From a virus: DNA of 26,264 bases. Where the stretch lies: IMG/VR virus record IMGVR_UViG_3300042322_000122, positions 1-26,264 of that record; one strand, written 5' to 3'. A program made the translations under genes and the position numbers. Every line of letters begins with the position of its first letter. Position 1 is the stretch's first letter. Shown one piece after another: positions 11,917-26,264 of this stretch. The notes under the pieces are model-generated. The model was given only the letters and a program-made list of their open reading frames with translations. It ran no database searches and was not told the origin of the DNA.

Positions 11917-12281
11917 TGTCAGAAGAAAAATCAATCCTCGAAATGCTCATGTCTGGTACTCCTGTAAGAATTGTCAACCGTGTAGAGCCACGACATCACG
12001 CTCTTTCCCCGGAAGAAAAAGAACTAGCAGATGCCCTCGTGAACATTGCTGAAAGATACGGCAAGTTCAACGAAGACAAAAAAGGTATTTGGGCAGGCTA
12101 CGACGAAGCGTCAAGCAACACTGTTGCAAGAATTGGTGTTAAGTGCGAAAACTGCGTCCTATATGCGGGCGCTGGGCAATGCCGCATAATCCTTCAGACC
12201 GTAGAGCCTGAAGGAAAATGCAGATTTGCCGTCATACCAGATGGTGTAGTACAGATGGCAATGGGCGGCCCGATTATTTAA
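11916..12281 (+). CDS. Small four-cysteine protein, possibly Fe-S or zinc binding
   Basis: A 121-residue protein coupled to the nuclease gene by TAATG. The N-terminal half is helical and charged; the C-terminal half has CENCVLYAGAGQC and EPEGKCRFAVIP, giving C-x2-C-x8-C and a fourth Cys about 14 residues later. This layout resembles small high-potential-iron-sulfur-like or zinc proteins annotated in phages, and echoes the cysteine part of the 430-residue protein two genes upstream. No catalytic motif is seen. Its last eight bases overlap the 3' end of the reductase gene on the other strand, so the two transcripts collide here with no terminator visible between them. Confidence 0.7.
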   Translation: MSEEKSILEMLMSGTPVRIVNRVEPRHHALSPEEKELADALVNIAERYGKFNEDKKGIWAGYDEASSNTVARIGVKCENCVLYAGAGQCRIILQTVEPEGKCRFAVIPDGVVQMAMGGPII

Positions 12282-14199
12282 TCGGACACGCACCTGTTGC
12301 GCAGTCATCCATATCCAGCTCTCCAGAACCCTTAGGCGTATAGAGAGGGACGGTGAAGTCAACCTTGCCAAGAAGCTTTTCGTATGCTTCTTTTGTGATT
12401 TCTTCGTATGGCGCAAGGGCAAAGTTGTGGTCTGCATGAAGCAGGAAAGAAACAGACTTGACAGAGTTGTCGTAGTTATTCTCTAGCCACTCCTTGATGA
12501 GCGAAAGCTCTTCCTTGCGATAGTAGACAGTTACCGATACGGCATTGTCTGCCCACTCGGTCTGCATCTTCTTAACCCATTCAAGTTGCTCAACCGCCGT
12601 CATGTCTTTTGCAAGAACTGCGTTCTCTGGAGACTCGCATGGGAATTCGACAACGTAACGAGTGTGGTCTTCACGCCCATCAAGACCCATGTCCCATTGA
12701 ACCTTGTAACCACGCTTGCGACATGCCTCAACAAGAGGGTCAGCCGCACCAAAACGCACACGACGAATGTAGTGACGAGCATATGCGGGATGAATGCCTG
12801 GAGTAATTCCCGGGAGAAGAGAAAGAGTTCCTGAAGGCTGAACCGTGGTGAGTCTTACCGACTTGGGGAAAGACTTTTCCTTGGAGTACGCCTCATCAAA
12901 ATCACGCAAGTTCTGATACGCATCATCAAGCCATGAAACCTGTTCTGCTGAAGCCTGAAGAACGCCGGTAATTGATTGACCAAGACGAGCGTTCTTGCTA
13001 ACAATTTCCGTTGTCTTCTTGTATGGATAGTTCATGCGAGTGATTTGCTTTTGCACCTTGTAAAGAAGTGTGCTGATTTCTTTGAATTGCTCTAGTGATT
13101 CAATGTTCGGAAGGAAGATTGTTGCTAGGTTGCAGGACTCTCCGTCACCAAGTGCGATTTCTGCGCATGGATTAAAGCCCTCAATTGAATTGTCTGGGTT
13201 CTTTTCACCAAGACGGCCAGTCGTACGAGCAAGACGACGATTAAGAAGACCGTAAGGCTCTCCTGAGCCGTCGTAGCCCTTCCACAGTTCTGACATGATT
13301 TCATCAAAGTGGTCAGCGTAAATACTGTTGTTTGAGTTGGCTCTCCACGCAGGAACGTTTCCTGATGCCCAGTTCTTCGCACGAAGGAAAAGAACGTCAT
13401 CAGGGTCGCCCATTGCTATTTGCGCCGACCGACGTGACGAGCCGGAAACAACAATGCGACCAATAATGTTGCAAATATCCAATACATCAATAGACCTCAG
13501 TTTCTTGCCTTCGCGGTTTTTCATAACTTTACAAATGTCTTCTATGCCGTCAACAAGCGCACCTGGTCCGCTTGCGGTTCCACCAAAAGTCTTTAGCGGT
13601 GCACCAAACTCACGAATCAAAATTGTTGAGTAAGAGAATGACTTGCCGGTGTCAAAATATGAACGCAGGACGCTGTGAAGAAGGCGACGCCATCCTTGCC
13701 GTGAGTCCGGGACAATAATGTCAGCGTCGTTAGTGCGCTCATGCGTTACGGAAACATTCATCTTCACTTTTGGCAAATCATGAATCTTTGAACGCTCAAC
13801 AGAGAATCCAACTCCGCCACCAAGCATCAAGTAATCAAACAGAAGTTCAAAGTCCTCTACTTTTTCAATGTTTGTGAAGTAGCAGTTATTAAGAGAAGTG
13901 GCGTTGTATTTTTCTACTAACGGTGTTCCGAGTTGCCATAAAGACCTACCCGAAAAAGAACAACGGAGGTTAAAGCAGTGGTCGAATAAAGTTTCTGCTT
14001 CGCTTTCTGTAAACGGTACCCCAATGTCAAGTGCGCCATTAATGACGCGCTGTAAAGTTTCTGCCCAAGTTTCGTTGTCACCATTTTCCTTCTGTCTGCT
14101 ATATGTGCGAAGAAATACAATTTCTCCTAGTCCGTTAAATCCCCAAGGGGCTTTCTTTGTTGCGTAAGAGTCAACGAATAGTTGGTCTAAATGGCTCAT
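12274..14199 (-). CDS. nrdJ: Class II (adenosylcobalamin-dependent) ribonucleoside-triphosphate reductase
   Basis: A 641-residue monomeric B12-dependent reductase that turns NTPs into dNTPs in the cytoplasm, similar in type to Lactobacillus leichmannii RTPR (739 residues), but shorter. Seen: WGFNGLGEIVFLRTYSR near the start, the first active-site Cys in SLNNCYF, LMLGGGVGFSVER, the thiyl-radical motif FNPCAEI (Cys at 13165-13167 on the complement) with GESCNLATIFLP, QPSGTLSLL, and the C-terminal redox pair CATGACPIK that re-reduces the active site. The ATG at 14199 with AGGA seven bases upstream is preferred over an in-frame TTG five codons earlier. No partner subunit is needed. The host must supply cobalamin and thioredoxin or an equivalent. 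Confidence 0.95.
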   Translation of the reverse strand: MSHLDQLFVDSYATKKAPWGFNGLGEIVFLRTYSRQKENGDNETWAETLQRVINGALDIGVPFTESEAETLFDHCFNLRCSFSGRSLWQLGTPLVEKYNATSLNNCYFTNIEKVEDFELLFDYLMLGGGVGFSVERSKIHDLPKVKMNVSVTHERTNDADIIVPDSRQGWRRLLHSVLRSYFDTGKSFSYSTILIREFGAPLKTFGGTASGPGALVDGIEDICKVMKNREGKKLRSIDVLDICNIIGRIVVSGSSRRSAQIAMGDPDDVLFLRAKNWASGNVPAWRANSNNSIYADHFDEIMSELWKGYDGSGEPYGLLNRRLARTTGRLGEKNPDNSIEGFNPCAEIALGDGESCNLATIFLPNIESLEQFKEISTLLYKVQKQITRMNYPYKKTTEIVSKNARLGQSITGVLQASAEQVSWLDDAYQNLRDFDEAYSKEKSFPKSVRLTTVQPSGTLSLLPGITPGIHPAYARHYIRRVRFGAADPLVEACRKRGYKVQWDMGLDGREDHTRYVVEFPCESPENAVLAKDMTAVEQLEWVKKMQTEWADNAVSVTVYYRKEELSLIKEWLENNYDNSVKSVSFLLHADHNFALAPYEEITKEAYEKLLGKVDFTVPLYTPKGSGELDMDDCATGACPIK

Positions 14200-14236
14200 T
14201 TTTTTCCTGTTCAATATGCCCTAGGTAGGTGTGGGA

Positions 14237-16188: not shown

Positions 16189-16548
16189 ATGGCCGACAAA
16201 TTTGATGAAGCTCCACGAGATGGTAGATGCAAAGGCCAAGACACCAACATGTGGTTTCCGGTTTTTGGTGCTTCACCAACAAGGGAAGAACGCAAAGCAA
16301 ATGAGCGCAATACTGCGCAGGCATTAATCATTTGCAAAGACTGTGAACAAACACAACACTGTCTCGAGTATTCACTCCGTCACGAACCATACGGGATATG
16401 GGGAGGCAGGACCGAACTGCAGAGAGCAAAACTCAGAGCGGCAAGAAGCATCAGACTCTCAAGAGATGCTCGTATATTTTTCCCAGGAATAGGTACTAGA
16501 AATGCAAACGGAGACTTCACCGGTTGGCGTGATATGGATGCGCAGTGA
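16189..16548 (+). CDS. WhiB-family [4Fe-4S] transcriptional regulator
   Basis: A 119-residue WhiB-like protein. The four cluster cysteines are C14, C49, C52 and C58 (C-x34-C-x2-C-x5-C), and the family turn YGIWGG (residues 68-73) is followed by a basic segment (RTELQRAKLRAARS) that contacts DNA. The N-terminal DTNMWFP and CLEYSLRHEPYG are also typical. WhiB proteins bind the sigma factor region 4 and adjust promoter choice; phage copies can act against or imitate host WhiB proteins. A near-perfect ribosome site GGAGGA precedes the ATG. The C-terminal extension of ~40 residues has no known motif. The stop overlaps the GTG of the primase gene. Confidence 0.95.
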   Translation: MADKFDEAPRDGRCKGQDTNMWFPVFGASPTREERKANERNTAQALIICKDCEQTQHCLEYSLRHEPYGIWGGRTELQRAKLRAARSIRLSRDARIFFPGIGTRNANGDFTGWRDMDAQ

Positions 16549-18324: not shown

Positions 18325-18978
18325 ATGGCAGAAGATAGAGGCAATAAGCCTGTAACTAGAGAATTCCTTTCCGAAAGGGATGCCCGCATATTCAAAATGC
18401 GACAAGCGGGAACCTCCATACAGGAAATAGCAAGACGCTTTGGCGTCAGCTCAGGCGTAGTCTCCAACGCTGTTAAAAGGCAACTGGAAAAACTAAACAA
18501 AGAGGCAATGCTTGCCTATCCAGAAGTTTTAAGAATGGAGCTTGAAAGGCTCGACAATCTTCAGCAAGCAATCTGGCCACTGACTCAACACCGTAAAGTC
18601 CGAATGGATGACGGCTCAGAGGTGTCAGTGGAACCCGACATGAAGGCGATTCAGCAGGTTTTGTCCATCATGGATAGAAGAACAAAGCTTCTCGGAATGG
18701 ACCAAGTTAACCTCAACGTGCAGATGGATGCCAGCATGTCCAGTTCTGACCCAGTAAGAGTAACCCTGGCTGGGGCTACAGCAAAGGGTGAGATAGAAAA
18801 GTTCGACCCAGAGTCAGAAGCAAGGAAACTGCTTGAACTTATGGGTGCTTCAGGAATACTCCCGCCAGAGATGATTAGGCAACTACTTAGAGGTGGGGAA
18901 ATTATCGACGCTGATGTAGTAGAAATAGAGGACGAAGAAGAGGAGACCGAAATCCTCTCTATCGAGAATCGAGAATAG
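18325..18978 (+). CDS. HTH protein, probable terminase small subunit
   Basis: A 217-residue protein. Residues about 17-55 form a helix-turn-helix (RDARIFKMRQAGTSIQEIARRFGVSSGVVSNAVKR in two pieces), followed by a long helical region (RMELERLDNLQQAIWPL, KAIQQVLSIMDRRTKLLGMD) and an acidic C-terminal tail (VVEIEDEEEETE). HTH plus LxIxxRRxxLLGxD is a common pattern in proteins annotated as phage terminase small subunits, which recognise DNA for packaging. A transcription regulator remains possible since no large terminase subunit is in the window. It begins 13 bases after the primase gene. Confidence 0.55.
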   Translation: MAEDRGNKPVTREFLSERDARIFKMRQAGTSIQEIARRFGVSSGVVSNAVKRQLEKLNKEAMLAYPEVLRMELERLDNLQQAIWPLTQHRKVRMDDGSEVSVEPDMKAIQQVLSIMDRRTKLLGMDQVNLNVQMDASMSSSDPVRVTLAGATAKGEIEKFDPESEARKLLELMGASGILPPEMIRQLLRGGEIIDADVVEIEDEEEETEILSIENRE

Positions 18979-18980
18979 TA

Positions 18981-19328
18981 ATGGCAAAAGATAAAGAAAT
19001 CAGAGAAGCCATAGACAGAGTCATGGAAGACAACAAAGACATGGCTATTGCTAACCCCGCTACGTCCAACGGGGAAACTGTTGACAAGCAAGTATTAATC
19101 AGGGCGTCCGAATATGACCGTGATAGATGGAAGAGTGCCGCTGAAAAATCAGGAACAACACTCTCCTCATGGATTCGCGACTCCCTCAACAAGACCGCAG
19201 CGGAAGCTTTGGACTGCGTGCACCCTCTTAATTCGAGAAGATTTTATCCCTGGGCAGAGATATGTCTTGCTTGTAACACACGCTTAAAAGAACATAATCC
19301 TAAAACGAGAAAGCAACGCAACAACTAG
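18981..19328 (+). CDS. Ribbon-helix-helix protein with C-terminal zinc-type motif
   Basis: A 115-residue protein. Residues about 35-72 (KQVLIRASEYDRDRWKSAAEK then GTTLSSWIRDSLNKTA) fit a MetJ/Arc-type ribbon-helix-helix: one strand, a helix, a turn and a second helix. The C-terminal part has DCVHPLNSRRFYPWAEICLACN, a Cys-x2-His and Cys-x2-Cys that would bind zinc; this HP-x-N-x-R...CxxC ending is familiar from actinobacteriophage proteins. RHH proteins bind DNA as dimers, so this is a likely regulator. It starts two bases after the preceding stop. The stop codon sits in a 10-bp palindrome CAACTAGTTG (19322-19331), which may be coincidence. Confidence 0.75.
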   Translation: MAKDKEIREAIDRVMEDNKDMAIANPATSNGETVDKQVLIRASEYDRDRWKSAAEKSGTTLSSWIRDSLNKTAAEALDCVHPLNSRRFYPWAEICLACNTRLKEHNPKTRKQRNN

Positions 19329-20679: not shown

Positions 20680-20914
20680 TATGACACTTCCATTTGATAG
20701 CAAAAACCCAGAAAAGGCATTAGCCGCTATGAAAATAGGGACTCATGGTTTTTTCTCGCAGAACAACGACCTGATGGACATGGTCGTCGTTGCTGAAAAT
20801 AAAAACAATAAACCAAAAGACCATCAAGCAATTTCTGATGAGTCTCTAAAAATAGACCCAAAAGAGTACATGGAAGAAGAGTCGAAAGAGGCTACTTCTT
20901 CAGAAGAGCTTTAA
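20672..20914 (+). CDS. Small hypothetical protein (77-80 residues)
   Basis: A short, acidic protein (LPFDSKNPEKALAAMKIGTHGFFSQNND in pieces, then DMVVVAENKNN). The start is either GTG at 20672, with GGAG four bases upstream, or ATG at 20681. The last 23 bases overlap the end of the small gene on the opposite strand. The C-terminal tail is strongly acidic (MEEESKEATSSEEL). No motif or family recognised. It closes the long rightward gene block that began with the H1-like gene. Confidence 0.5.
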   Translation: MTDMTLPFDSKNPEKALAAMKIGTHGFFSQNNDLMDMVVVAENKNNKPKDHQAISDESLKIDPKEYMEEESKEATSSEEL

Positions 20915-21095
20915 GTTCGTCTTCAAAAATGTCAACGTACTCATCGGCGTAGCGATGTTGAAGAACGAGTGAAGCCCTGCGTCTTGCTTCTTGACGTTTT
21001 CCTGTTAGTTCTTTTCTGCTTTGTTTTTCTTCTTCAGAAAGCCGTGGTCGTCCACGAACAAGTCCGCGTTTTTTTAGAGTGTCGTACTCTGACAT
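20892..21095 (-). CDS. Small basic protein, possible DNA binder
   Basis: A 67-residue protein (MSEYDTLKKRGLVRGRPRLSEEE, then a Lys/Arg helix KQSRKELTGKRQEARRRAS, then HRYADEYVDIFEDELKALL). The ATG at 21095 has a good ribosome site GAGAGG six bases upstream. GRPRLSEEE recalls an AT-hook-like or short basic segment before a helix, and small proteins of this kind are frequent in actinobacteriophages. It is the only leftward gene in this part, convergent with the preceding rightward ORF and divergent from the next, as a small regulator would be. Confidence 0.7.
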   Translation of the reverse strand: MSEYDTLKKRGLVRGRPRLSEEEKQSRKELTGKRQEARRRASLVLQHRYADEYVDIFEDELKALLKK

Positions 21096-22241: not shown

Positions 22242-22314
22242 GGGCTAGTAGCTCAGTGGTAAGAGCAGCACTCTTATAAGGTGTTGGTCGTGGGTTCAAT
22301 TCCCATCTAGCCCA
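22242..22314 (+). tRNA. tRNA-Ile, anticodon TAT
   Basis: A complete 73-base cloverleaf: acceptor GGGCTAG/CTAGCCC, D stem GCTC/GAGC, anticodon stem GCACT/GGTGT with loop CTTATAA, variable TGGTC, T stem GTGGG/CCCAT with loop TTCAATT, discriminator A. The anticodon is TAT (22275-22277), which reads the isoleucine codon ATA. No CCA is encoded (CTA follows), as is common in actinobacterial tRNAs. Most bacteria read ATA with a lysidine-modified CAT anticodon instead, so a true TAT-Ile tRNA is uncommon. Confidence 0.93.
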
Positions 22315-22329
22315 CTATGAAAGGAAAAG

Positions 22330-22645: not shown

Positions 22646-23506
22646 ATGGCAATAAGAACAGTAAACCACATCCCATTCCACAAGCGTCCAAAGCCTGCTT
22701 ACCTCATATGGATAAGAGACGACAGTCGCACAAGCAATGAAGCCAAAACGCTCGAAAACTACGACGGTTACAGGCACCTACATACATGGCAAAACAGTAT
22801 GTGCGCAATGTGCGGCAGAGACGGGGAAAAACTTGTTTTGGACCATTGCCATGAAACGGGTCTTGCTCGTGGCTTTCTTTGCTCCCCGTGCAACATTAAA
22901 GAGTCAAAAAGTTTTGGTGCAATCGAGTGGGAGATTTATAGAAAGTTTCCCCCGGCAGTACTGCTAGGGCTAAAGTTCTATTACAACGACTTTGGTCAGT
23001 CTCCATATCCTGCTCAACACCTTATTGAAAAAGAAGATATTGAATCAGGGATTGAATCATGGGAAGACGAGACATGTCATGAATTGATAAAACTTTTCTG
23101 CAATTACAGCGCTAATCTTCATTGGGTAAATTTATCCGACATGAGATTGCTGATTCGTAAATCTTTTGCACACGTTAGAGAAGTGTCCGGTGTGGAAGTT
23201 TTATCAGAAAATGAAAAGGGACGTCTTGCCGCAGCCGGAGCCAAAAACAGATACCTGAATCTTGCAAAAGCCGAAGAAATCAAAGAAGTCGAAGAAGTTG
23301 TGGATAAATCTATTTCAACTGAAGAAAATTCTGCAAGAACTGATAGGTATTTCTCCATTGCAGAAGAAGACAGAGACATGATTGACAATCTTGCATTGGC
23401 AATGTCTAAGGCGACCGGCGCATCCATTAACCCCCAAGATGTATTGGAAGCAATGTCTCAAGCGGAGATATCAGTTTATCCAACATCAGGAAAGTGGCAA
23501 GAATGA
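22646..23506 (+). CDS. Endonuclease VII-type HNH (Holliday-junction) nuclease
   Basis: A 286-residue protein whose N-terminal part matches the recombination endonuclease VII family. Zinc ligands C53-x2-C56 and C79-x2-C82 frame the active-site motif LVLDHCHETGLARGFLC (D66, H67, H69), followed by the conserved CN. T4 endonuclease VII cuts branched DNA and mismatches before packaging; this copy probably does the same. Residues about 100-286 are an extra region of no known type: helical, with an acidic coil (KAEEIKEVEEVVDKS) and a C-terminal helix (DMIDNLALAMSKATG). The start is the ATG at 22646 and the end overlaps the next gene (ATGA). Confidence 0.9.
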   Translation: MAIRTVNHIPFHKRPKPAYLIWIRDDSRTSNEAKTLENYDGYRHLHTWQNSMCAMCGRDGEKLVLDHCHETGLARGFLCSPCNIKESKSFGAIEWEIYRKFPPAVLLGLKFYYNDFGQSPYPAQHLIEKEDIESGIESWEDETCHELIKLFCNYSANLHWVNLSDMRLLIRKSFAHVREVSGVEVLSENEKGRLAAAGAKNRYLNLAKAEEIKEVEEVVDKSISTEENSARTDRYFSIAEEDRDMIDNLALAMSKATGASINPQDVLEAMSQAEISVYPTSGKWQE

Positions 23507-24216
23507 GTCTGCTCGACAGAATGGAACGCATTTCAGAACGTGACGAAAGACTATCGAGGTACAAAGAGGAGTCAAAACGAATAGCCTCTCTCGGTCTTGC
23601 AAGGTCTCCAGAAAATCAATACGACAGAGAACTTGGTGTATATGTTCCACGTTCCAGATTAATAGGCTTCGACGGAATAGTTAGGGCTGGAAGAACTGTT
23701 GACCAGGAACCGCTTAAAAAACCAAAAAACTCTACGTTCATGAAAATGACACATGCATTCACGAGCCTAAGGCGTGCTGGAGTGGACGCAAGATGGAATG
23801 TTACCGTTCCTGAAGCAGACACGCGCGTTGGGTACTTTTGCTCGCTTTCATATCCTTACGTTGGCCCCCGTGTAACTCACTGGCGAGCTGCTGATGTAAC
23901 AAATGAATCAATCTCTACGGGCATACAGTGGGGGCAAGACTGGGAACCAATACAAGATGCTGTTGATTTTGATAGCTTCAACGGTGCAGAAGAAGTATTC
24001 ATTACGACTCTTGCTGAGCATGGTATAAGAGCAGAAGTGTACGAAGAGTGCGACGATAACAAGATAATAAAAGTAATTTTTCGTGGAGAAGGAAGCCTCT
24101 GTGGTGCGAGATGGGTATGGACGGACTACGCCTTTTCGAGCAAGAGGGTCGATGCTCCGGAAATAGGTTCCTTAATTACAGACACAACCCCATACATGGA
24201 AATGTATACAAACTAG
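23503..24216 (+). CDS. Hypothetical protein
   Basis: A 237-residue protein. ATG at 23503 overlaps the preceding TGA and has AGGAAAG about eight bases upstream; an in-frame GTG at 23494 is an alternative. The N-terminal 40 residues are a charged helix (LLDRMERISERDERLSRYKEE). The rest is mixed with many Trp and Tyr (RVGYFCSLSYPYVGPRVTHWRAADV, IQWGQDWEPI, CGARWVWTDYAFSS in parts), suggesting a compact beta-rich fold. No family recognised. The last G of the stop codon is the first base of the following tRNA. Confidence 0.65.
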   Translation: MSLLDRMERISERDERLSRYKEESKRIASLGLARSPENQYDRELGVYVPRSRLIGFDGIVRAGRTVDQEPLKKPKNSTFMKMTHAFTSLRRAGVDARWNVTVPEADTRVGYFCSLSYPYVGPRVTHWRAADVTNESISTGIQWGQDWEPIQDAVDFDSFNGAEEVFITTLAEHGIRAEVYEECDDNKIIKVIFRGEGSLCGARWVWTDYAFSSKRVDAPEIGSLITDTTPYMEMYTN

Positions 24217-24289
24217 GGCCCTTAGCTCAGTTGGTTAGAGCGCCGGACTCATAATCCGTTGGTCCTGGGTTCAAGTCCCAGAGGGCCCA
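24216..24289 (+). tRNA. tRNA with CAT anticodon, probably tRNA-Ile2 (lysidine type), alternatively elongator Met
   Basis: A 74-base cloverleaf: acceptor GGGCCCT/AGGGCCC, D stem GCTC/GAGC, anticodon stem CCGGA/TCCGT (one C-T mismatch at its outer end), loop CTCATAA, T stem CTGGG/CCCAG with loop TTCAAGT, discriminator A. Anticodon CAT is at 24250-24252. From memory the sequence is closest to E. coli tRNA-Ile2 (ileX), and it has the C4-G69 and C5-G68 acceptor pairs used by the lysidine synthetase TilS. It would then read ATA. A Met tRNA cannot be excluded. No CCA is encoded. Confidence 0.92.
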
Positions 24290-24322
24290 CCGATAAATTT
24301 AAACAAACGCAGAAAGAAGACA

Positions 24323-24592
24323 ATGTCTAACCAGTCGTCAATGACTTATGGAGCAAATCGGCTATCCATTGAAACCGTCCTCAGGATGTTTGCTGAAAAA
24401 GAGCTAGCCGCAGGAGACATTGGAGAGGTATGTGGGTTTTCTCGCAAGACCTACTATCGATTCAAGCAGTACGGAGTCTCCCTGGAGTGGGCTGAGAAAA
24501 TCGCCCATAGCCTTGGGCTCCACCCTACAGAGATTTGGGGTACGGCGTATTTGATGTCCTGTGCTGCCGAAGAAGCGGAAAATGGGCACTGA
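24323..24592 (+). CDS. XRE-type helix-turn-helix protein
   Basis: An 89-residue protein with a single helix-turn-helix domain (residues about 18-72). The core is IETVLRMFAEKELAAGDIGEV, CGFSRKTYYRFKQYG as the recognition part, and LEWAEKIAHSLGLHPTEIWG, an ending typical of XRE/Cro-like or phage excisive-type regulators. No dimerisation or protease domain follows. The ATG has AGAAAGAAG upstream. Just before it, at 24290-24301, lies a half-copy of the palindrome found ahead of the next genes, so it may be under shared control. It belongs to the right-end regulatory block. Confidence 0.75.
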   Translation: MSNQSSMTYGANRLSIETVLRMFAEKELAAGDIGEVCGFSRKTYYRFKQYGVSLEWAEKIAHSLGLHPTEIWGTAYLMSCAAEEAENGH

Positions 24593-24795
24593 GCCATTTC
24601 CGGCATTTGGGGCCCTCTACGGCCCGCACAACCCCGCTGAGGGCACCCCACGCCCGCCCGGCCGCAACTATCCGGCATCGTTAAGTTGTATTTAACAATC
24701 CAGCGCGTAGCGCTCCGCGAAATTTTTAGAAAACAGCATCAAACCCCCTAAAGTCCGATAAATTTATCCGAAAGAGACCAGAGGAGCCAATATTT
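24593..24795. promoter_or_regulatory. GC-rich gap with inverted repeats and operator-like palindrome before the LexA-like gene
   Basis: This 203-base gap starts GC-rich (about 24597-24675) and becomes AT-rich. It contains GTTAA (24680-24684) with TTAAC (24692-24696), and AGCGC-GTA-GCGCT (24702-24714). It also contains the perfect palindrome GATAAATTTATC (24757-24768) ahead of the LexA-like gene. The ribosome site AGGAG precedes 24796. Clear promoter hexamers could not be fixed. Confidence 0.55.
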
Positions 24796-25092
24796 ATGGG
24801 TAACCCACTTCCATTCACCCCCACGCACGATGGGGTCACTATGCGTCACCGAGAGATGGGCCTACGCCTACTCAAGTTCGTCTACGAATACCGCGAAGAG
24901 AACGGATTCCCCCCATCCGTACGAGAGATATGTGCCGCTCTGGGGTACAACTCGTCAAGCTCCGGCAAAACAGTGCTGGAAATGGCAGAAAAGCGCGGCT
25001 GGCTGCAGGTAAACACGAAAATCCCACGAGGAATCAAGATTCTGGAAGAAGGAATGGCCGTGCTGCAGCAGGAAATTCTGGAAAGTCAATAA
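24796..25092 (+). CDS. LexA-type DNA-binding domain protein lacking the S24 peptidase
   Basis: A 98-residue protein. Residues 17-85 align with the winged-helix DNA-binding domain of LexA: REMGLRLLKFVYEYREENGFPPSVREICAALGY in sections, SSSSGKTVLEMAEKRGWL and a wing IPRGIKI. LexA normally continues for about 120 residues with a Ser/Lys self-cleaving domain; here only a short helix (MAVLQQEILESQ) follows. It therefore cannot be cleaved in the usual SOS manner and may be a constitutive repressor or a competitor at LexA-like sites. AGGAG nine bases before the ATG fits the start; an internal ATG (M16) is less likely. Palindromes lie before and after it, suggesting self-control. Confidence 0.85.
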   Translation: MGNPLPFTPTHDGVTMRHREMGLRLLKFVYEYREENGFPPSVREICAALGYNSSSSGKTVLEMAEKRGWLQVNTKIPRGIKILEEGMAVLQQEILESQ

Positions 25093-25106
25093 AAAACGCC
25101 CCCTTT

Positions 25107-25120
25107 GGATAAATTTATCC
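25107..25120. promoter_or_regulatory. Perfect palindrome GGATAAATTTATCC, candidate operator
   Basis: This 14-bp perfect palindrome lies between the LexA-like gene and the gene at 25181. Together with the following bases it repeats the site at 24757 over 20 positions with one mismatch. A small inverted repeat, ACTAC-TCCT-GTAGT followed by ATTTTT, lies just downstream and could be a weak terminator or second site. Confidence 0.6.
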
Positions 25121-25180
25121 GGAAGAGCTGACTACTCCTGTAGTATTTTTAGCGAGGGAACCGACACTAAGGTAAACATC

Positions 25181-25387
25181 ATGACCCTACGAGACCCCAA
25201 CGAGTACATGCCCGAAACCGTAGAGCGATTCAGGGGTTACGACCACCCTAAAGCACGTGTCTACGTCGAGTACTACGACCAAAACGGTCACTTCCCTCCG
25301 GGAATCTGGGAAGACGTGCAAATACTAGACATGCAATTCAATATGCAGATTGCAATGGGTGAACGACCTGAGGATTTAGAAGAATAA
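25181..25387 (+). CDS. Small hypothetical protein
   Basis: A 68-residue acidic protein (RFRGYDHPKARVYVEYYDQNGHFPPG, then EDVQILDMQFNMQIAMGERPEDLEE). The ATG has AAGG about seven bases upstream, and codon use resembles that of the LexA-like gene. No family or motif recognised. It lies 60 bases after the GGATAAATTTATCC palindrome and is the last credible gene before the repeat region. Confidence 0.6.
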   Translation: MTLRDPNEYMPETVERFRGYDHPKARVYVEYYDQNGHFPPGIWEDVQILDMQFNMQIAMGERPEDLEE

Positions 25388-25560
25388 CCCCCTCGCATTT
25401 AGAAGAACAAACTCTTACCTCTGGGGAGTTTGGATAAATCTATTGGAGATTTGGTGAGCTTGAAAAATTTCAAACTTGACCCCCCCAGGAATTTAGGGCT
25501 GTGTGGCAAGGGATTCGGGGCTACAAGGCACCCATTTTCAGAGGGCACGACATCATTTGT
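25388..25560. other. Non-coding leader into the repeat region
   Basis: I see no credible gene here. The region holds a degraded copy of the operator-like palindrome (GGATAAATCTATTG, 25432-25445, 11 of 14 positions) and TTGAAA-AA-TTTCAA (25460-25473), a near-perfect palindrome. A C-tract (ACCCCCCC) follows. It may carry a promoter or other regulatory site reading into or away from the repeats. Confidence 0.5.
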
Positions 25561-26264
25561 ACAGCGCAACCACTACACATCACACACTACCAGCACGCAC
25601 AGTCACACACACAATCGCAGTGAGCCCACATAGCACACGCAATGACATAGCACATCATCAGCATTAGTACATCATCACGAAATGCCGTTATGGGTTTATG
25701 GGTTCACGGGTCTATGGGTCAGTGAGTACACACACCACACACCACATCAGTACACACACGCAGTACACATCACATCACACGCACACACGCAATGTCGTAT
25801 CACACATCACATCACACGCAATCGCATACACATACGCAATCGTTATCGCAATGTCAATCGTCATCACATCACACATCATTCATTAGTACACATCACATCA
25901 TTCATTGACATACATACAATCGCATACGCAATCGCATACACATCACATACACATCATCATTAGATACATCACATCATCATCATCACGCATACATAGATGA
26001 CATCATCATCACATACACACATCACATACATAGATGACACACACATCATCACATCATCATTGACTCATCACATCACATCACGCACACATAGGTACATACA
26101 TAGGTACATCACATCACGCATCACATCACGCATTGACATAGGCACATAGGTAATCGCCTAGTGCTATGGGTTGCCTATGGGTAATCCATACACACCCACC
26201 TACAGAGGTACACATACATACATAGGTACATAGGTACACACACCTACCTACACACGCACGCCTA
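25560..26264. repeat. Low-complexity CACAT/CATCAT repeat region
   Basis: About 700 bases of degenerate short repeats built mainly of CACAT, CATCAT, ACGCA and CATAGGTACAT units, continuing to the window edge. It is very poor in G on this strand: in 25921-25980 I count 4 G against 19 C. Longer exact copies are embedded: CAATCGCATACACAT at 25819-25833 and 25929-25943, CATACATAGATGACA at 25988-26002 and 26025-26039, and TATGGGT at several places. Open frames across it give only His/Thr-rich products of the repeat and are not genes. The type suggests an expanded satellite-like, possibly structural or origin/packaging-associated, region. Confidence 0.85.
25692..25718 (+). repeat. Four-tract G-quadruplex motif with 8-base period
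   Basis: Four GGG runs (25692-25694, 25700-25702, 25708-25710, 25716-25718) are each separated by exactly five bases (TTTAT, TTCAC, TCTAT). This fits the G3-N5 quadruplex pattern on the + strand. It is the only G-rich stretch in the otherwise G-poor repeat region. Related TATGGGT copies recur near 26165-26182. Confidence 0.8.

Follow-up and report, generated by a model that had tools for sequence, protein, structure and literature searches.

A conserved 14-nt palindrome as a candidate operator in a family of large uncultured actinophages

We describe a palindromic site that recurs in a family of large uncultured actinophages, and whose copies, judging from sequence comparison, probably serve as operators of a small regulon under a shared phage protein or a host factor. 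From the conservation, positions and enrichment of the sites, we infer that a symmetric, probably dimeric DNA-binding protein would recognise the consensus RGWTARATYTAWCY, which we derived from the collected sites. The LexA-like gene lying between two of them is more likely a target than the source of their reader.

The sequence analysed (hereafter the window, or G000) is a linear IMG/VR record of 26 kb (26,264 nt), and the related phage genomes compared with it carry other G-numbers. Among its genes are one encoding a 646-aa protein (12274-14214, minus strand), ribonucleotide reductase-like to judge by appearance and 98.6 % identical in G001 and 93.8 % in G004, and a WhiB-like gene (16189-16548; PF02467). 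No close cultured relative of the group was found in the phage collection searched.

Sites in the window and in related genomes

A sequence-only reading of the window had listed four related sites, all of which a check of the sequence located where they had been placed:

24290-24301: site ahead of the XRE-like gene, CCGATAAATTTA
24757-24768: core ahead of the LexA-like gene, GATAAATTTATC
25107-25120: 14-mer ahead of the gene at 25181, GGATAAATTTATCC
25432-25445: site regarded as a degraded copy, GGATAAATCTATTG

The reported agreement of the two best copies was also retrieved, i.e. a 20-nt match with one mismatch between 24757-24776 and 25108-25127 (95 % identity). At three mismatches or fewer the window contains 7 sites for 1.34 expected, and none of 100 shuffles reached 7. 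A further copy, missing from the earlier list, lies in the HNH gene:

23124-23137 (no strand assigned): HNH-gene copy GGGTAAATTTATCC, one mismatch, inside coding sequence

In relatives, the peptide W(V/I)N(L/S)SDMR encoded there is kept and the palindrome decays to 3 mismatches, at silent positions; from this comparison, the copy is probably a coding coincidence.

The motif also recurred in other phage genomes: GGATAAATTTATCC gave 31 matches at two mismatches or fewer, and 20 at one or fewer, in 583 kb of related phage DNA. Composition-matched palindromes obtained by permuting the half-site (n = 105, the motif itself included) averaged 2.9 and 0.45 matches, respectively, in the same 583 kb, the best rival reaching 12 and 4. 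A PWM excess over Markov-1 (dinucleotide) simulated sequence was obtained for every motif-bearing genome, in a test that is not independent since the PWM was trained partly on sites from these genomes. No such excess was seen in G024, and both sites of G026 lie at the genome end. Each motif-bearing genome carries 3-9 sites (PWM score of at least 12). The symmetric variants AGATAGATTTATCT and AGTTAGATTTAACT of G023 suggest selection on the palindrome. The distance from site to gene start is variable (26-81 nt), some sites lie at gene 3' ends (site a of G015, and G029), and some matches in G004 and other genomes fall within coding sequence. The 14-mer did not occur in the literature searched.

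The LexA-like gene and its flanking sites

The features of this part of the window are as follows:

24216-24291: tRNA-Met
24291-24304 (no strand assigned): XRE 'half-site' CGATAAATTTAAAC, overlapping the tRNA-Met 3' end
24323-24592 (plus strand): XRE-like protein, 89 aa, all-helical, AF2 model weakly XRE/Cro-like
24657-24728 (plus strand): noncoding block lying between the genes for the XRE-like and LexA-like proteins, with hairpins then a T-run, terminator-like
24756-24769 (no strand assigned): O1, CGATAAATTTATCC, 26 nt ahead of the LexA-like ATG
24796-25092 (plus strand): LexA-like protein, 98 aa, PF01726 (E=7e-10)
25107-25120 (no strand assigned): O2, perfect palindrome GGATAAATTTATCC, 60 nt ahead of the 68-aa gene
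25181-25387 (plus strand): 68-aa protein, function unassigned, 3' of O2 and conserved in relatives

The core ahead of the LexA-like gene and the 14-mer ahead of 25181, which correspond to O1 and O2, were confirmed as strong palindromes conserved in relatives. O1 occupies the same position in G001 and reads CGCTAAATTTATCC in G004/G005 and GGATAGATTTATCC in G007/G008; O2, just 3' of the LexA-like gene, is found at the homologous place as GGATAAATCTATCC in G001/G004/G005 and CGATAGATTTATCC in G007/G008. Both were retained in all four genomes compared, O1 at 26-27 nt before the LexA-like gene and O2 at 60-61 nt before the 68-aa gene. The LexA-like gene is thus bracketed by the two sites in G000, G001, G004, G005, G007 and G008; in G007/G008, where its product is only ~30 % identical, O3 (described below) follows.

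The LexA-like protein consists of a LexA DNA-binding domain without the C-terminal peptidase (PF01726 only; wHTH fold), and its AF2 model matches 3jso (a LexA-DNA complex), 3k2z and 1lea. Relatives of the gene were found in five viral contigs, and a wider search of viral and genome contigs returned these five only, with none in genomes.

The half-site proposed before the XRE-like gene is present, but is probably not an operator: it overlaps the end of the tRNA-Met gene and is restricted to the closest relatives (AGATAAATTTAAAT in G001, absent from G004/G005). For the XRE-like protein itself, neither Pfam nor PHROG yielded a family at E<=1e-3. In G023, XRE-like and LexA-like genes overlap as a pair (L163 2243-2882, minus strand), with no motif near them. 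A tRNA-Ile gene (TAT anticodon) was also noted at 22242-22315; Rfam analysis of the window returned tRNAs only, plus sub-threshold antisense matches over them.

Against G004/G005, the noncoding block at 24657-24728 shows 94.7 % identity over 75 nt, exceeding the surrounding genes. It is terminator-like, and its predicted fold is no better than shuffles. An RNA hairpin function of the palindrome was rejected, as the G004 sequence CGCTAAATTTATCC disrupts the stem with no compensating change and the predicted folds around O1 and O2 fall in the shuffle range.

The O3 element and distant phages

The right-hand end of the window contains the following elements:

25429-25445 (plus strand): O3, TTTGGATAAATCTATTG, left half-site conserved, right half not
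25429-25525 (plus strand): composite O3 element, i.e. half-site, then AAAAATTT, C-run and CGGGGCT
25550-26264: low-complexity CACATCAC/ACACGCA region, present after O3 in relatives and possibly an origin region

The copy at 25432, described earlier as degraded, turned out to be the conserved left half of a longer element kept in distant relatives. In the window this composite borders the CACA-rich noncoding region and is laid out as TTTGGATAAATCTA, ~20 nt, AAAAATTTG, CCCCCC, ~30 nt and CGGGGCT; its family form is TTTRGATAAAT, ~20 nt, AAAATTTG (or ATATTTTG) and a C-run, usually followed by CGGGGCT. TTTGGATAAATCTA is exact in G001, G004, G005 and G007, with a varying right arm, and variants of the half-site occur in G012, G015, G030, G033, G031 and G017. 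Each genome yielded a single copy, bordering the noncoding region, in far-apart phages. A search for structured RNA 3' of O3 gave 4 pairs and no covariation.

Distant relatives were retrieved using the small-terminase-like protein (18325-18975), which yielded 80 further loci. The same motif was present in six genomes with no detectable LexA-DBD protein (G015, G017, G027, G029, G031 and G033), and no XRE homologue was found in these six or in G007 and G008, which also carry the motif. In phages without a LexA-DBD gene the sites adjoin other genes, encoding a small protein termed R2, wHTH-like only by weak matches (G015, G017, G021, G031 and G032), and a MerR-like protein. Relationship of R2 to the LexA-like protein was unsupported by hhalign (probability 5.5).

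A site also precedes the start of a DUF932-like gene (DUF932/TIGR03299, a name that we presume from recognising the sequence, which starts MAHEL...) by 28-41 nt in 8/8 genomes where the gene was found, i.e. G004, G005, G008, G031, G017, G033, G027 and G023, G004 and G005 being near-identical. After realignment, the sequence ahead of the ATG reads AGATA[AG]AT[CT]TA in 8/8 genomes, and the site is present whichever regulator the genome carries. In G004/G005 it had seemed coding, and the real start is likely 17 codons later; in G004 the gene is ~8 kb beyond the cassette, outside the window fragment. Conserved symmetric sites thus stand before orthologous genes in several genomes and number only ~3-9 per motif-bearing genome, which supports well the small regulon, with these sites as its operators, that the sequence-only reading had proposed.

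Candidate readers and mode of action

The scheme that we favour would have the symmetric DNA-binding protein control the cassette bordering the CACA-rich region (in the window, the genes of the LexA-like and 68-aa proteins, through O1 and O2), with the O3 composite element at the border and the DUF932-like gene as further units. The LexA-like gene would then be one of the regulated genes, and the reader most likely a family-wide phage protein or a host factor. The aligned sites share an A/T-rich block (A/T 0.81-0.96) at a distance of 18-23 nt from the edge of the palindrome, which at some of them could serve as a -10 element. TTATCC was discarded as a general -35 element, the right half being unconserved in O3 and some DUF932 sites. 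A single promoter layout is doubtful, given the right-arm variation of O3 and the position of the DUF932 sites immediately ahead of the RBS. What the sites would have in common is an operator close to where transcription starts, and we do not commit to the sign of control. No tyrosine or serine integrase (PF00589 or PF00239) was found in 16 genomes, contigs of 119-170 kb among them, records which may be fragments. Lysogeny is therefore unsupported, and the sites more likely control the lytic programme than immunity.

The sequence-only reading had pointed to the LexA-like and XRE-like proteins as readers, and neither assignment was upheld: on sequence distribution, the controlling protein is probably neither of them. 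That the LexA-like protein binds O1 and O2 and regulates its own gene and the 68-aa gene, like gp6 of GIL01, would fit the bracketing of its gene, the modelled resemblance of its wHTH fold to LexA-DNA complexes, the 14-bp palindrome likewise bound by gp6 (PMC6182141) and the A/T-rich block as a possible -10 place. We nevertheless consider it unlikely, since the motif occurs in phages devoid of a LexA-DBD gene and before DUF932-like genes regardless; moreover, the residues of the recognition helix are SSSSGKT in the window but SSSTAHL in G007, though the sites hardly differ, and O1 has no consistent -10/-35 pair. Presence of the motif in phages without LexA-like and XRE genes makes the LexA-like gene more likely a target than a reader. 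The XRE-like protein is a very improbable reader: its gene is adjacent, its model is XRE-like and a partial site precedes it, but no homologue was found in G007/G008 or in the non-LexA genomes that bear the motif, and the half-site is that unconserved one overlapping the tRNA. A host actinobacterial transcription factor, through which phage genes would respond to the state of the host, would explain why the motif is constant while the adjoining cassette changes (LexA-like, R2 or MerR-like); taken as the sole explanation it seems about as unlikely as the LexA-like protein, the motif having been matched to no known host box. Overall, sequence comparison makes a conserved phage protein or a host factor a more plausible reader than the LexA-like protein.

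The elements could instead mark a replication origin rather than promoters, as suggested by O3, the CACA-rich region, the A/T block and the DnaA boxes of G007. The O3 composite adjoins repeats, three DnaA-box-like TTATCCACA repeats directly follow O3 in G007 (L150 3416-3446), and in G001, G008, G015, G027 and G029 a GC-skew extreme is found no more than ~2 kb from O3. Against this, O3 does not coincide with a skew extreme in G004, G005, G031 and G033, no DnaA-box cluster follows O3 in genomes other than G007, and O1, O2 and the DUF932-like-gene sites are left unexplained, so that we hold an origin to be a rather improbable account of the whole set. For O3 itself, a promoter and an origin are both possible.

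Returning to a regulon with a shared reader, two proteins of the window are candidates:

18981-19328 (plus strand): RHH-like (ribbon-helix-helix-like) protein, 115 aa, with a C-terminal Cys/His motif, candidate common reader
20892-21095 (minus strand): basic protein, 67 aa, carrying the AT-hook-like motif RGRPRLS, second candidate reader

Among the genes of G004, that of the 115-aa protein has an ortholog in all motif-bearing genomes that extend over this region, and none was found in G024 or G026; its only Pfam matches, NikA-like and TacA1, are weak and below cut-off, and the 67-aa protein has none. The 67-aa protein and, elsewhere in G004, MarR-like and RHH proteins show a distribution similar to that of the 115-aa protein, and such MarR-like or RHH proteins encoded outside the window are further candidates. 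Because shared ancestry gives the same presence-absence pattern, a reader and co-inherited genes are inseparable among these ~12 partial genomes. G026, with two sites and no candidate reader, is a counter-case. Tentatively, a single phage protein (e.g. the RHH-like 115-aa protein, ~6 kb upstream) may read the constant palindrome while LexA-like, R2 and MerR-like genes are swapped beneath it, with O3 possibly linking the regulon to a conserved element of noncoding or origin type.

Several known systems offer comparison. Actinobacterial LexA SOS boxes (consensus CGAACN4GTTCG) are likewise palindromic operators of a LexA-fold protein, whereas their consensus is unrelated to ours and the peptidase domain is absent here. 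The start-associated sequences of cluster K actinophages are short conserved motifs just upstream of some start codons and thus of a gene subset, as here, but they differ in sequence, and our sites keep no fixed distance to the start. Among experimentally studied cases, the nearest to a LexA-DBD protein paired with a 14-bp palindrome is gp6 of the Bacillus tectivirus GIL01, a truncated LexA homologue with the DNA-binding domain and no peptidase, which binds GaCACAnnTGTGaC (P3 site) overlapping the -35 element and activates transcription (PMC6182141). Protein architecture and palindrome length are shared; in contrast, the gp6 site lies at one late promoter, whereas our phages carry several sites each, including phages without a LexA-like gene. 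Cluster A mycobacteriophage operators/stoperators are also short motifs repeated at several intergenic places of actinophage genomes. Stoperators are reported to be asymmetric and numerous, with an immunity repressor that reads them as a monomer (PMC9283540), unlike the ~3-9 palindromic sites of phages in which no integrase was found.

These results call for caution, as the product of a repressor-like gene is not necessarily the reader of a palindrome beside it. They also single out O3 as a conserved noncoding border, possibly an origin or a promoter. If the sites are operators, as is probable, they would provide an initial cis-regulatory code for these uncultured actinophages, a large group, with a list of the proteins that may read it.
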